From an uncultured Elusimicrobiales bacterium (GTDB taxonomy: Bacteria > Elusimicrobiota > Elusimicrobia > Elusimicrobiales > Elusimicrobiaceae): 64,000 bases of DNA. Shown here in pieces: positions 58,080-64,000 of the stretch (the stretch's first letter is position 1; every line of letters starts with the position of its first letter). Both the position numbers and the translations under genes were made by a program. The notes under the pieces were generated by a model. The model did no database searches. It saw only the letters and a program-made list of their open reading frames with translations, and was not told the DNA's origin. Location: assembly GCA_944325225.1 (NCBI GenBank), contig CALUZQ010000003.1, forward strand, positions 1 through 64,000, given 5' to 3'.

Positions 58080-59174
58080 TTAGAACGATAATTTTTCTAT
58101 CTGTTCCAGTTCCTTATCCAGCGGCAGTACCTGGGCTTTTACCGCGGAGAAGTCTATTTGGCTTAAATCCACCTCGCGGATTTGGCTGTTGTACATCGTG
58201 CGGTAATAAAAAGCGGGCTGGGTCATATTGGTTACGCTGGTCCACTGCGTGGCGCTGGGCAGATCCGGCATCGTTTGACCGGCGGCAAATTCCACACCGA
58301 TTGGGATATCAAAATTATTTAAAATATGGAACGCCTGCAGCACGCCTTCCCGTGCCGTTTTAACCGCCGGAGCCGTGTGTAAATAGAAGAAGGCCCGCAC
58401 AAAACGCGAAGGCGGGGTAATATCGCCCGGCAGTCCCCACATGCCCGCGCCGGCCCCAAAGGCGGCCAGGACCGTTTTGCCGTATTCGGTGGGTTTTACA
58501 TCGCCCGGCTGCAGGTGAACATAGTTCTTTAGATTTGTTACCTGCCACGGGAAAGAAGGCGAGTTGGTTAATACACCGGCGGTGTTTTCGTAAATATGCC
58601 GCTGGCCGTTATTTTCAATTTCCAGCACAATGCTTCGGCCCGTAGCGTCGGCAATGCGCCAATGCCCGGTGGAGGCCTCCGTTTGCCCTTTTTGGGGCGG
58701 GTAAATGGTAACGATGTCTATCTTTTTAAGCCCCTGGATTACCTCTTCCACGGTGGCAAAGTTGGTCAACATCCAGCGTACCAGTTCTACATCCGCCACG
58801 GATTTTTTGGTCCGTTTGGGATTAAACGGCGCTAAACTGCCATAGCCGGAAAAATAGAAAATACCGGCGGCCAAACCCTTTTCATTCACGCCTTCGCCGA
58901 TGAACGGATCTTTTACCACGCTGATTCCTACCGCGCCGTATTTATTCGTCCACGAAAGACCGTTTGGCCCTTGCGGAGTCAGCGCGGTGTTTTTTTGACC
59001 GCGGGGCAAAATAACTAATTGGCTGTTTAACGAAAAACTGCCCCATTCTATGGTGCGGGCTTGCAGCCGGGCGCCGTCCTGCGTGCGGAAAGAAATTCCT
59101 GTGCAGGCCTGCGCCTCAATGACCGGAAATCCGGTTAAAAGCAAAGACAATACTGCCGCTAAAAGTTTTTTCAT
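58080..59174 (-). CDS. Choloylglycine hydrolase / penicillin V acylase family enzyme, exported
   Basis: A 364-residue Ntn-hydrolase. The signal peptide ends ...VIEAQA and the mature protein begins with the nucleophile Cys (CTGISF), as expected for periplasmic Gram-negative members. Other active-site-type positions: ARTIEWG (Arg kept, Glu where most have Asp), LTNSPSFPWQ (Asn) and SRFVRAFF (Arg). The family covers bile-salt hydrolases, penicillin V acylases and N-acyl-homoserine-lactone acylases; the substrate cannot be told from sequence alone. ATG 59174 with GGAGG upstream; a longer frame to 59270 is rejected. Confidence 0.88.
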   Translation of the reverse strand: MKKLLAAVLSLLLTGFPVIEAQACTGISFRTQDGARLQARTIEWGSFSLNSQLVILPRGQKNTALTPQGPNGLSWTNKYGAVGISVVKDPFIGEGVNEKGLAAGIFYFSGYGSLAPFNPKRTKKSVADVELVRWMLTNFATVEEVIQGLKKIDIVTIYPPQKGQTEASTGHWRIADATGRSIVLEIENNGQRHIYENTAGVLTNSPSFPWQVTNLKNYVHLQPGDVKPTEYGKTVLAAFGAGAGMWGLPGDITPPSRFVRAFFYLHTAPAVKTAREGVLQAFHILNNFDIPIGVEFAAGQTMPDLPSATQWTSVTNMTQPAFYYRTMYNSQIREVDLSQIDFSAVKAQVLPLDKELEQIEKLSF

Positions 59175-59338
59175 GTATCCTCCTTTTCTCATTATAAAAA
59201 AGAAAACGCCTGCCACAAGGGATAAATTTGTATTAGAAGTAGGCCCGGGCCTAAATAAAATTGGGTCCAACGGCCCTTTGAAAAAAGGGAAAATAATCCG
59301 ATAATATAAGTAAAGGATTTTTTAAAGAGAGGCATTTT

Positions 59339-60487
59339 ATGAGAATAGCAGTTCTTCTGATTTTCTGTTTGGCGAGCGTTTGGCTGCAGGCGCAGCCCCT
59401 GGTAAAGGGAACGCAGGCGTTGGTAAAGCAGGCCGCCGGCAGCGGTGCGGAAAAATCTATCCAAAAAAGCGGCAGTATTTTAGATGAATTAGACCGGCTT
59501 TACACCTCCGGCGAACAAATGAAAGTACAAGCCCTTTGGAAACAACGGGTAGAAGCGGCGCGGGTTCGCCAGCACCGGGCCGCCGAATGGGAATCTCAAC
59601 GCGGCGTGCCGGAACGAATGCGGATTTTGCGCAGCTATATCCGCCCCACGGAACCGCAGCAGCTGCCCCGGTTGGCGCACCCGTTTACCGGGCAGGAATT
59701 TGCTTTTTCCCGTCAATATCAAACGGTTATGGCGGAATTTTCGGAACTTCGCAAAAATTTTGAAGTCTATACTTTTTTCTCGGTTTCGCCGGTGCAATTT
59801 CCCGATGAGAAAAAACGCGTGATTGGTACGGAATGGCACGGGTTATTGATTAAACTGCAGAAATTGCAACAGGTATATCCGAACGATAAACCGTTAAATG
59901 CCGCTTTGGAGTATGTGCAGTTTGCTTTGGGTGAAATCAACCCCATGATGAAAGGCGCTTTTGCCAAACCCCAGCCGCGGACCGGACGGCGCTTTCAAAA
60001 AGAGGAATTCGTTTTTGATGAGATGTGGTTCTCCCAAATCAGCCGTATGGCCTGGCCGCCCCGGAAAGCGGAACTGCCGGAAAACTTAAATGTGATTGTG
60101 GTGAACGACGACCCGACGGTGTTTCATCACTATTCTTTGTGGAAGAGCCAGGGATTATTTAAAAATTGGAATTTTACTTTCTATGATACGGCGGAAGCCG
60201 CGGTCAAGGAAATCGCCGCTGATAAAAAGTACCAGTTGTTAATTACGGACTGGACCGTCGCCAACAGCAGTGTGCTGGAAAGCGTGCGCCAACTGCGCGC
60301 GGGCGGGCATACGATTCCGGTTATTGTGTGCAGTTCTTATACGGCGGACCAGATCAATGCCCAACAGATGTTCAACCAGGGTTTTGACGGATTTGTATCC
60401 TGGGCGTCCGTATCGGCTTCGGGGCCGGAATACTTAACCGAACGCTTAAAACAGTATTTCTTCTACAAAGATTACTATAAATGGTAA
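59339..60487 (+). CDS. Exported protein with C-terminal receiver-like domain
   Basis: A 382-residue protein with a signal peptide (about residues 1-19, ending LQAQP). The middle part (about 30-235) is helical and charged, with no family I recognise. The last 120 residues look like a response-regulator receiver: VIVVNDDPTVF (acidic pair), LLITDWTVANSS (position of the phospho-Asp), IPVIVCSSYT (Ser/Thr) and GFDGFVSW, where the invariant Lys is lost. Receivers are normally cytoplasmic, so a secreted copy is odd. GAGAGG precedes ATG 59339. Monocistronic with a strong terminator. Confidence 0.65.
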   Translation: MRIAVLLIFCLASVWLQAQPLVKGTQALVKQAAGSGAEKSIQKSGSILDELDRLYTSGEQMKVQALWKQRVEAARVRQHRAAEWESQRGVPERMRILRSYIRPTEPQQLPRLAHPFTGQEFAFSRQYQTVMAEFSELRKNFEVYTFFSVSPVQFPDEKKRVIGTEWHGLLIKLQKLQQVYPNDKPLNAALEYVQFALGEINPMMKGAFAKPQPRTGRRFQKEEFVFDEMWFSQISRMAWPPRKAELPENLNVIVVNDDPTVFHHYSLWKSQGLFKNWNFTFYDTAEAAVKEIAADKKYQLLITDWTVANSSVLESVRQLRAGGHTIPVIVCSSYTADQINAQQMFNQGFDGFVSWASVSASGPEYLTERLKQYFFYKDYYKW

Positions 60488-60506: not shown

Positions 60507-60545
60507 AAAAAATACAGTTTGCATATTGCAAACTGTATTTTTTAT
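60507..60545. terminator. Bidirectional terminator (17-bp perfect stem)
   Basis: AAAAAATACAGTTTGCA (60507-60523), loop TAT, TGCAAACTGTATTTTTT (60527-60543). Confidence 0.92.
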
Positions 60546-61815: not shown

Positions 61816-64000
61816 ATGAAAAAAATAATTTTTCCGTTAGTCGTTTTAGTAGCCGGTATTTTTTTAATTATCCATTTATCTCCGAAAACTTCCCCAGTGG
61901 AGCCGGGTCTTGCCGCTCAGCTTAATTTGGATACCATGAGCCCGGCCGAGGTAGAAAAGTTTATCAAAGAGGAAATGTTTGATGTAAACGAAGTAGATGA
62001 AAGAGGAAAATCCTTTTTTGTCAGAGCGGTTCGTCAGGTATCCAATCCGGAGATGATAGAAGTGCTGATCCGGCAGGGCGGGAAAGTAAATCAAAAGGAA
62101 GCAGATGGGGATTTCCCGCTGTATGCGGCGTTGTCTAATTCCAATCCGCAAGTGGCGGAGGTCTTGCTGAAGCACGGCGCCCAAGTGAATCAGATGGTTG
62201 GCGGCGAAACCTTGTTAATGCGGGCTATTTTGCTGGGGGCTGATGACAAAATTGAATCGCTTTTGAACCACGGCGCCGATGTAAATGCCCGCAACAAAGA
62301 CCGCAGCACCCCGCTGATGTATGCGGCGCAGTATAATCAAAATCCTCAAATGGTTGATTTACTGATTGAACGGGGGGCCAGCATCAGTGCGATGAATAAA
62401 AACAATGTCACGGCTTTAATGTTGGCCGCATTTGGGAATTCCAATCCGCAGGTTATTCGCACCCTGGTCAAACACGGGGCTCAGGTAAACGCACGGGACA
62501 AACAGGGCGATACGCCGTTAAGTTATGCGGCGCGTTCTCTTTTCCCGGAAAATGCAGGCGTGTTAATAGAACTGGGGGCTAAAGTGAATGTCCAAAACCA
62601 GTTGGGCTATACGCCTTTGATGGAAGCCGCGGCGTTTGGCAAAGAACCGGAAACGATTGACACTTTAATCAAACACGGCGCCCAAGTAAATGCCAAAGAT
62701 AAAAACGGGCAGACGGCCCTCATGTGGGCCGCGGGGGATAATTCCAATCCGCAAATTATCCAGCGGCTGCTGGCGGCGGGGGCCAACATAAACGCCAAAG
62801 ACAACCGCGGCCGAACCGCCCTCATGCGGGCTATGCTGTTGGGAAATAATGCCCAGGTGGTCAAACTGCTTTTGGACCAGGGCGCCGATGTGAATGCAAA
62901 AGACGCTTCCGGAAGCACCCCCTTTATGGCCTTGCTCTCCAAAAAAGATCTCTTGGACCAGCAGAATCAATCGGAACTGGTCGCGCTGTTTTTGAAAAAA
63001 GGCGCCAATTTAAATGCCGCCGAGCAGGACGGATATACCCCGCTGCTGCATGCCCTTTCTATTGATGCAAGTCCCGCTGTTATAGAGCAGTTGTTGGCGG
63101 CAGGCGCCCAAGTAAATGTGAAAGAGAAACAAGGCATCACCCCGCTGATGCTGGCGGCGGTTCGTTCGTCGGATCCTGCCGTGTTGAAATTGTTGCTGGA
63201 CCACGGGGCGGATATCCATGCCCGAAGTAATAGCGGGAAAACCGCTCTTATGCAGGCCGCCGCAAATAATACCCGGGCAGATATCGCCGCTTTTTTAATT
63301 CAAAACGGGGCTTCCATCAATGCGCAGGATGACGGAGGCGTTACCCCGTTGATGTGGGCTGTTAAATTTAAATTTAATCCGGAAGTATTTTCCTTGTTGC
63401 TAAACAGCGGGGCGGATATTCAGATCAAAGATAAACGGGGCCGGACCGTTTTGATGACTGTATTGGAAGAAAATCCGAATCCGGACTTGGTGGAGCTGTT
63501 AATTCAGAAAGGGGCTTTGATAAATGATTCCGATCGGGACGGAGTAACCCCGTTAATGTTGGCCACTTATAAAAAGGTGGATTCAAAAATTTTCAAACGC
63601 TTAATTCAGGGCGGGGCGCAGATAAATGCCCAGGATGCAAAGGGACAAACCCCCTTAATGTGGGTCGCTTTAAGGAATGGCGATACGGAAAAAGCCCTTT
63701 TGCTTATTCAAAACGGGGCGGTGATAGACCAACCGGATCAAGCCGGCATTACCCCGCTAATGCGCGCCGCCGGGAAAAGTGCCAACTTGGTGCAGCTGCT
63801 GTTTAAATCCGGCGCTTCCGTAACGGCTAAAGACAAAGCCGGCCGCACCCCCTTAATGTGGGCCGCTCAGAACCAGGCCGACTCAAACGATTTAAACCAG
63901 CTGATTGATTATGGGGCGGATCTGAATGCGCAGGATAATCAAGGGCGTACTCCGTTGATGTATGCCGGTCGTTTTAATAAAGAACCAAAAGTGATTGCCG
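61816..64000 (+). CDS. Long ankyrin-repeat protein with N-terminal membrane/export signal (partial at the right edge)
   Basis: The frame is open from ATG 61816 to the end of the window (728 codons) and has no stop, so the protein is longer. AGGAG precedes the ATG. Residues 1-22 (MKKIIFPLVVLVAGIFLIIH) are a signal peptide or membrane anchor. From about residue 60 there are about 20 tandem ankyrin units of 33-36 residues, each with a TPLM-x-AA-type turn (STPLMYAAQ, VTALMLAAF, QTALMWAAG, RTPLMWAAQ) and a GAxxNAxD loop. It is probably an extracytoplasmic or envelope-anchored binding scaffold. DNA-level repetition of the units (for example cccgctgatg strings) allows copy-number change by recombination. 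Confidence 0.88.
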   Translation, partial: MKKIIFPLVVLVAGIFLIIHLSPKTSPVEPGLAAQLNLDTMSPAEVEKFIKEEMFDVNEVDERGKSFFVRAVRQVSNPEMIEVLIRQGGKVNQKEADGDFPLYAALSNSNPQVAEVLLKHGAQVNQMVGGETLLMRAILLGADDKIESLLNHGADVNARNKDRSTPLMYAAQYNQNPQMVDLLIERGASISAMNKNNVTALMLAAFGNSNPQVIRTLVKHGAQVNARDKQGDTPLSYAARSLFPENAGVLIELGAKVNVQNQLGYTPLMEAAAFGKEPETIDTLIKHGAQVNAKDKNGQTALMWAAGDNSNPQIIQRLLAAGANINAKDNRGRTALMRAMLLGNNAQVVKLLLDQGADVNAKDASGSTPFMALLSKKDLLDQQNQSELVALFLKKGANLNAAEQDGYTPLLHALSIDASPAVIEQLLAAGAQVNVKEKQGITPLMLAAVRSSDPAVLKLLLDHGADIHARSNSGKTALMQAAANNTRADIAAFLIQNGASINAQDDGGVTPLMWAVKFKFNPEVFSLLLNSGADIQIKDKRGRTVLMTVLEENPNPDLVELLIQKGALINDSDRDGVTPLMLATYKKVDSKIFKRLIQGGAQINAQDAKGQTPLMWVALRNGDTEKALLLIQNGAVIDQPDQAGITPLMRAAGKSANLVQLLFKSGASVTAKDKAGRTPLMWAAQNQADSNDLNQLIDYGADLNAQDNQGRTPLMYAGRFNKEPKVIA

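Follow-up and report, generated by a model that had tools for sequence, protein, structure and literature searches.

The 382-aa ORF at 59,339–60,487 (+) of the window, the whole 64,000-nucleotide stretch of uncultured Elusimicrobiales DNA analysed here, encodes a protein in which a predicted signal peptide is joined, by way of a helical middle region, to a C-terminal receiver-like domain with a degenerate active site. The exported pseudo-receiver is a family trait and is not peculiar to the window gene: a search for homologues in Elusimicrobiota, proposed in an earlier sequence-only reading of this DNA, found a conserved family from which 120 members were collected. On sequence comparison and structure prediction, receiver ancestry and export of the window protein are both judged highly probable. 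Because the export signal and the degraded receiver are conserved as a family in one Elusimicrobiota group, these findings suggest that a receiver domain has been given a new job outside the cytoplasm. The reading that we favour, with somewhat less than even confidence, is an exported pseudo-receiver that has a metal-locked site, lacks a phosphoryl switch and serves for docking or anchoring, the metal and the partner both being conjectural.

The gene is preceded by a promoter-like TTGAAA-16-GATAAT arrangement (59,278–59,305, +), which is a 10/12 consensus match only and one of six found in the region against 1.5 expected in shuffled sequence, and by a Shine-Dalgarno-like AAAGAGAGG (59,324–59,332, +), read from the sequence directly upstream of the ATG. 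A terminator scan called a single site, within the gene at 59,339–60,487 itself; past the stop codon, at approximately 60,508–60,543, a long A+T-rich inverted repeat uncalled by the scan looks terminator-like by eye. The flanks are a gene of the choloylglycine hydrolase family and an ankyrin-type region, with an isopropylmalate-dehydrogenase-type gene upstream. The hydrolase-family enzyme (58,080–59,270, −) is encoded divergently from the window gene and has an apparent signal peptide of its own, and the ankyrin-repeat protein (61,816–63,999), of at least 728 aa, has an N-terminal hydrophobic stretch and runs off the window.

The sole Pfam domain of the window protein is Response_reg, matched at residues 252–354 with an E value of 1.9e-6 when the full protein is the query; the N-terminal 251 residues alone gave no Pfam match. 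The score lies slightly above the Pfam cut-off of 30.2 bits in the genome-wide search (30.6 bits) and slightly below it for the C-terminal part alone (29.8 bits, E 7.3e-7). Searches of NCBIfam gave weak receiver matches only, and PADLOC a single match at E 0.065 that was taken as chance. AlphaFold2, run on the whole protein with 20 relatives (mean pLDDT 78, pTM 0.53), predicted a complete (beta-alpha)5 receiver order for residues 251–380. The pLDDT was 83–93 in 11 of the 13 ten-residue blocks of this region, the least certain parts of the modelled domain being the acceptor-loop block 301–310 (pLDDT 70) and the Lys-position block 351–360 (pLDDT 72). Foldseek searches of the PDB returned 58 chains at E 0.001 or better, nearly all of them receivers among the matches listed, and VIA-align 2 aligned the model to CheY (1e6l, the D13A mutant) with a Z score of 14.3 and an rmsd of 2.5 over 125 residues. 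From the Pfam match, the model and these two comparisons the pseudo-receiver domain is placed at residues 249–382 (60,083–60,484, +), and its predicted model has the (beta-alpha)5 fold of receiver domains (PF00072). The claim of the sequence-only reading that a signal peptide is joined to a receiver-like domain is confirmed by the Response_reg match, by the model and its CheY alignment, and by the n-h-c pattern that the N termini of the family display in sequence; structure prediction of the C-terminal domain, on which that claim might have foundered, gave a receiver-like result.

That reading had also found no recognizable relative for the helical middle region. This stands with respect to known folds: modelled alone by AlphaFold2 (residues 89–246, pLDDT 78, pTM 0.72), the region is predicted to contain a three-helix bundle at residues 117–200 (59,687–59,938, +), for which comparison with PDB folds was uninformative, the best Foldseek E value being 0.65 and the best VIA Z score 7.6, equal to assorted helical bundles. 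It does not stand with respect to the family, whose members share the predicted bundle as a family-specific feature. An HPt-like identity was rejected, as the bundle has three long helices and no column within the last 260 residues, a range that takes in the bundle, has His in more than 36 of the 120 members. Since no informative structural match emerged, any role for the bundle is a guess. A conserved linker motif, RTGRRFQKEEFVF, with the family form RxDRxYxxxEFFL, occupies residues 214–226 (59,978–60,016, +), and a C-terminal aromatic motif with the family form NYFYYRxLxGWxR lies in helix 5 (60,449–60,484, +), the window protein ending at W382.

Searches with the window protein recovered two tandem paralogues from its own genome and, in a first sample of 61 genomes, matches in 20, every one of them from the same genus, with no match in the 24 genomes of another family in that sample. 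This genus, which we take to be Avelusimicrobium or one near it, is presumably gut-living. With a 46-member profile (A1), 43 of 66 genus genomes have a member, at a best E value of 2e-52 or lower; the other 23 have best values of 6e-4 to 1e-8, and a match of that strength in the window's own genome is a cytosolic receiver. Across a phylum sample of 294 genomes, with at most six candidates scored per genome, matches of 1e-12 or better outside the genus came from five genomes. Two of the five matches are signal-peptide-bearing giants from another genus within the family; the remaining three resemble, on sequence, one ordinary hybrid kinase and two ordinary receivers. No match was found in a plasmid collection queried with the window protein only, or in a phage collection queried with one relative only. 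Each of the 120 members is a distinct ORF, no shorter than 150 aa, that matched at E < 1e-15 in chosen loci, matches outside those loci not being counted; one of them (L162) is cut off before the last alignment columns.

Aligned in CheY register, the window protein has N256, D257, D304, S332 and W355 at the five active-site positions. The sequence-only reading had placed an acidic "DD pair" one residue out of register: the pair is N256-D257 (60,104–60,109, +), to which D258 does not belong. At its first site 107 of the 120 members have Asn and none an acid, and its second site is Asp in every one. The receiver-order Asp and Ser/Thr named in that reading do fall into place, as D304 at the phospho-acceptor position (60,248–60,250, +; Asp in 120/120) and S332 (60,332–60,334, +; Ser/Thr in 115/120, with Ser 94, Thr 21 and Ala 5). 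Its observation that the invariant Lys is missing likewise extends to the family: W355 (60,401–60,403, +) occupies the Lys position, and 119 of 120 members lack Lys there. Lys is found at 356, 357 and 358 in 1, 4 and 5 of 120 members, respectively, where the alignment is unsure. The sole member with Lys still at the Lys position is L036:7281–8444 (−). By eye, none of the five active-site residues is missing from any of the seven cytosolic receivers encoded in the window's own genome. Normal two-component function as a phosphorylatable receiver was rejected on N256 and W355, with acid at 256 in 0/120 and Lys at 355 in 1/120, and an acceptor Asp in 120/120 separates the family from aspartate-less receivers (ALRs). 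Recognized as a receiver and devoid of the first acid and the Lys, the domain is classed as a pseudo-receiver (PsR).

Identity to the window protein drops to 17–30% among 46 members, with one exception at 61%, and both copy number and presence vary. This much would be expected of a structural relic, in which the receiver fold serves as a stable exported scaffold, the Asp residues are kept for folding alone, and the arrays encode lineage-specific surface proteins devoid of metal or docking chemistry. Two observations speak against it. D257, D304 and R320 are invariant across all 120 members while most other columns drift (G348 and D350 are conserved in 119, the remaining row being cut off), although gathering members with a family profile favours rows that keep the profile's conserved residues. 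In addition, the receiver domain is under purifying selection: dN/dS calculated by NG86 for the twelve closest pairs was 0.08–0.20 over the whole gene and, over the last 133 codons, 0.03–0.18 in 11 pairs and 0 in the twelfth, with dS above 1 in several pairs. The window gene gave 0.12–0.18 against its three nearest relatives, with dS saturated and above 1 in every pair. We regard a relic of this sort as unlikely, and the metal-locked docking module remains the reading carried forward. In a tree of the 120 family receivers and ten cytosolic receivers, the ten fall on one side of a branch (100/90) and the two other-genus giants lie between, the 142 columns and long branches of this tree limiting what can be read from it about descent.

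Many family genes occupy one genomic site. At 25 loci, the window excluded, one to five co-directional family genes lie beside a gene encoding a DUF1646 membrane protein or a gene of an [FeFe]-hydrogenase operon, the latter encoding a [2Fe-2S] thioredoxin-like subunit; both neighbours, identified with Pfam, are present at 21 of the 25. At least 57 of the 120 members sit at such loci, and others may lie beyond the stretches fetched. When 17 other genomes were asked for the hydrogenase gene, 16 had it, and in 15 of these the site is empty, with a DUF1646-like gene directly before the hydrogenase gene and no family gene between; in the sixteenth, the DUF1646 gene was outside the range. Depending on the species, the DUF1646-to-hydrogenase site (e.g., L036:5387–10996) contains either no family gene or between one and five divergent ones. 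The closest relatives of the window gene (56–61% identical; tree group 100/100) are the family copies adjoining DUF1646 in three array loci, and because the window gene itself lies elsewhere it looks, from these sequences, like a relocated copy. An array member in G002 (L033:4568–5764) is split into ORFs of 116 and 270 aa and is apparently a decaying copy.

The bundle and receiver also occur as a module on very large exported proteins. The module ends seven giants of the genus, 1,819–2,168 aa in length (one truncated at the start by the end of its contig), and is close to the C terminus in two giants from the sister genus, of 2,351 and 2,357 aa. The N-terminal 1,800 residues of the giants match three further giants, from G001, G086 and G034, over essentially their full length at 42–54% identity, and proteins from G025 and G023 match the giants over the last 320–500 residues only. 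Aligned with four of the seven genus giants, all five of these module-less relatives stop at the module edge, and downstream of them no module remnant was found save one 48-residue match at E 0.036. Because the five relatives end at its edge and no clear remnant follows, the module appears, judging by these alignments, to be gained or lost as a unit. A PDB profile search with five giants recovered the receiver part (E 2.7e-4) and two weak matches. In L043 and the giants aligned with it, the strings NGHGY...HSCQTG (~980–1045) and HGG...NGCFSG (~1550–1610), which have no Pfam match, resemble what we take to be the His/Cys motifs of caspase-fold peptidases. The 2,351-aa exported giant of the other genus (L100:9113–16165, −) contains two Trypsin_2 stretches ahead of its receiver module.

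The placement of the module at the C terminus of all seven genus giants, and near it in the two sister-genus giants, is also what would be seen if the bundle and receiver together formed a C-terminal sorting signal for a secretion or anchoring machine, in the manner of the C-terminal domains (CTDs) of type IX cargo. A W-x-x sequence ends the chain in 91 of 120 members, the cargo ranges from almost none to about 1,800 residues, and the genome has two secretins, all of which accord with sorting. Most members, however, carry little cargo beyond the module, and orthologues of the giants exist without it. Por_Secre_tail (PF18962), the one type IX family covered, had no match in the genome, which at most weakens the idea, as no control genome reached the cut-off either. 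A sorting function is considered improbable.

The acceptor Asp, the second metal Asp and the Ser/Thr that the family keeps would equally serve an extracytoplasmic sensor that is still phosphorylated, whether by a small phosphodonor such as acetyl phosphate or by an exported kinase, and a passage of PMC12632262 states that the reactions need not be abolished by substitutions at DD, T or K. Such a sensor would nonetheless have to operate with the Lys absent in 119 members and the first acid in all 120, with Tyr or Phe at the aromatic switch position 352 in only 58, and with no conserved His as a within-protein partner in the last 260 residues of the 120 members (a range that does not take in residues 19–122). 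It is quite improbable as an account of the family. The retention of Ser/Thr in 115 of 120 members exceeds the need of a pure metal site, and weak phosphorylation is possible on this sequence pattern.

Export is predicted from sequence alone by a strict signal-peptide rule requiring a basic n-region, a hydrophobic core without acid and a small-x-small cleavage pattern, which 109 of 120 members pass versus 2 of 89 cytosolic controls. The controls are homologues of three hydrogenase subunits and of a protein that we take to be serine-dehydratase-like, and both that pass appear by eye to be ORFs extended upstream of the true start. This rule is our own, tightened after looser versions (114 and 112 of 120) that carry little weight, having also passed 92 of 181 neighbouring ORFs. 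Among the 11 failures, three have a signal peptide by eye, four start near a contig end and four (L022, L033, L115 and L116) either lack an explanation or have a start that is broken or misplaced. In the window protein the predicted signal peptide comprises residues 1–18 (59,339–59,392, +), with a likely cleavage at LQA↓QP suggested by the family pattern, since the cleavage region ends Ala↓Gln in most members. A lipobox-like string occurs in 8 of 120 members, the window protein not among them. The possibility of a cytoplasmic response regulator was rejected on the 109 of 120 members that pass the rule, whereas all seven cytosolic receivers of the window's own genome begin, by eye, with the receiver. 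Across the family the N terminus is predicted to behave as a signal peptide and not as the cytoplasmic helix that the sequence-only reading had named as its alternative. Signal anchors look similar and topology here is a prediction, yet an uncleaved anchor or an unexported protein, with its receiver in the cytoplasm beside a normal kinase, is very improbable given that Arg/Lys before the hydrophobic stretch predicts an N-in, C-out orientation, that the Ala↓Gln pattern is common to most members and that the active site has degenerated at positions on which phosphoryl chemistry depends.

For the exported pseudo-receiver with a metal-locked site, the following mechanism can be proposed. A Sec-type signal peptide, supported by sequence and prediction, would take the bundle and the receiver fold out of the cytoplasm, where neither ATP nor a histidine kinase is expected and switching by phosphorylation would have been abandoned. 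D257, presumably a direct metal ligand, and D304 are kept, and the first-site acid and the Lys are lost together. With one carboxylate and the Lys both gone, a single divalent ion would face two carboxylates, and the site may be permanently filled with Mg2+ or Ca2+ and held in one fixed conformation. The conserved C-terminal aromatic helix and the bundle may then form a docking surface that would tether the protein, or the giants bearing the module, to a periplasmic or cell-surface partner, and tandem copies could supply differing versions of that surface. The export signal, the fold, the residue pattern, the all-or-none occurrence of the module and purifying selection are the supported steps of this scheme; we infer the metal occupancy, the docking role and the final location. 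Reuse as a binding module, which the sequence-only reading had put forward, accords with the observed pattern, in which the metal-site Asp residues are kept, the Lys and first acid are lost, and the module is present on some giants and absent from their orthologues, the partner and the binding itself being inferred; taken as a whole, that interpretation is partly supported. A more specific history, in which a receiver was recruited once in an Elusimicrobiaceae-like lineage as an extracytoplasmic, metal-locked, C-terminal docking module, then duplicated in arrays and present or absent on giants, is plausible at a still lower level of confidence.

Few known domains are as abundant as the receiver domain, which is treated as intracellular. 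If the proposal is true, an extracytoplasmic adaptor has been made from one of the commonest intracellular switches. An invariant Asp pair without the Lys would show which part of the active site is worth keeping where phosphorylation is unexpected, and in this family metal binding could be investigated independently of phosphoryl switching. Normal receivers encoded in the same genomes can serve as controls, and natural giants that have or lack the module allow a direct test of what it contributes.

Several known systems resemble the family in part. Like HPt/DHp domains, it has a helical bundle beside a receiver; unlike them, it has no conserved His in the last 260 residues, and its three long helices have no informative match. 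Type IX secretion CTDs are C-terminal sorting signals of cargo with a fold distinct from the receiver. The family module resembles them as a C-terminal module on exported proteins of varied size, and differs in having the receiver fold instead of the CTD fold and in that giant relatives also exist without it. With CheY and other true receivers the family shares the fold, the acceptor Asp, the second metal Asp and the Ser/Thr, and differs in having neither the Lys nor the first acid and in being exported by prediction. PsRs are already known, and an exported PsR is apparently unreported in the literature searched, a body that excludes most subscription journals and in which no paper on exported receiver domains was found. 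The words periplasm, extracellular, secret- and signal peptide are absent from the main text of PMC12632262, and its sections 3, 4, 7 and 19 describe no PsR with an export signal. As defined there (Bourret et al. 2025, PMC12632262), a PsR is a recognized receiver without any one of five active-site residues; according to the passages on the acidic pair, the first site lacks an acid in about 20% of PsRs and the second in about 80%, and the metal is bound directly by the second acid and through water by the first. With its predicted (beta-alpha)5 fold and without the first acid and Lys, the family fits this definition. It is unlike other PsR domains in sitting behind a signal peptide and in keeping the second acid in 120 of 120 members and the first in none, which, set against the figures in those passages (PMC12632262), is the mirror image of the usual PsR.
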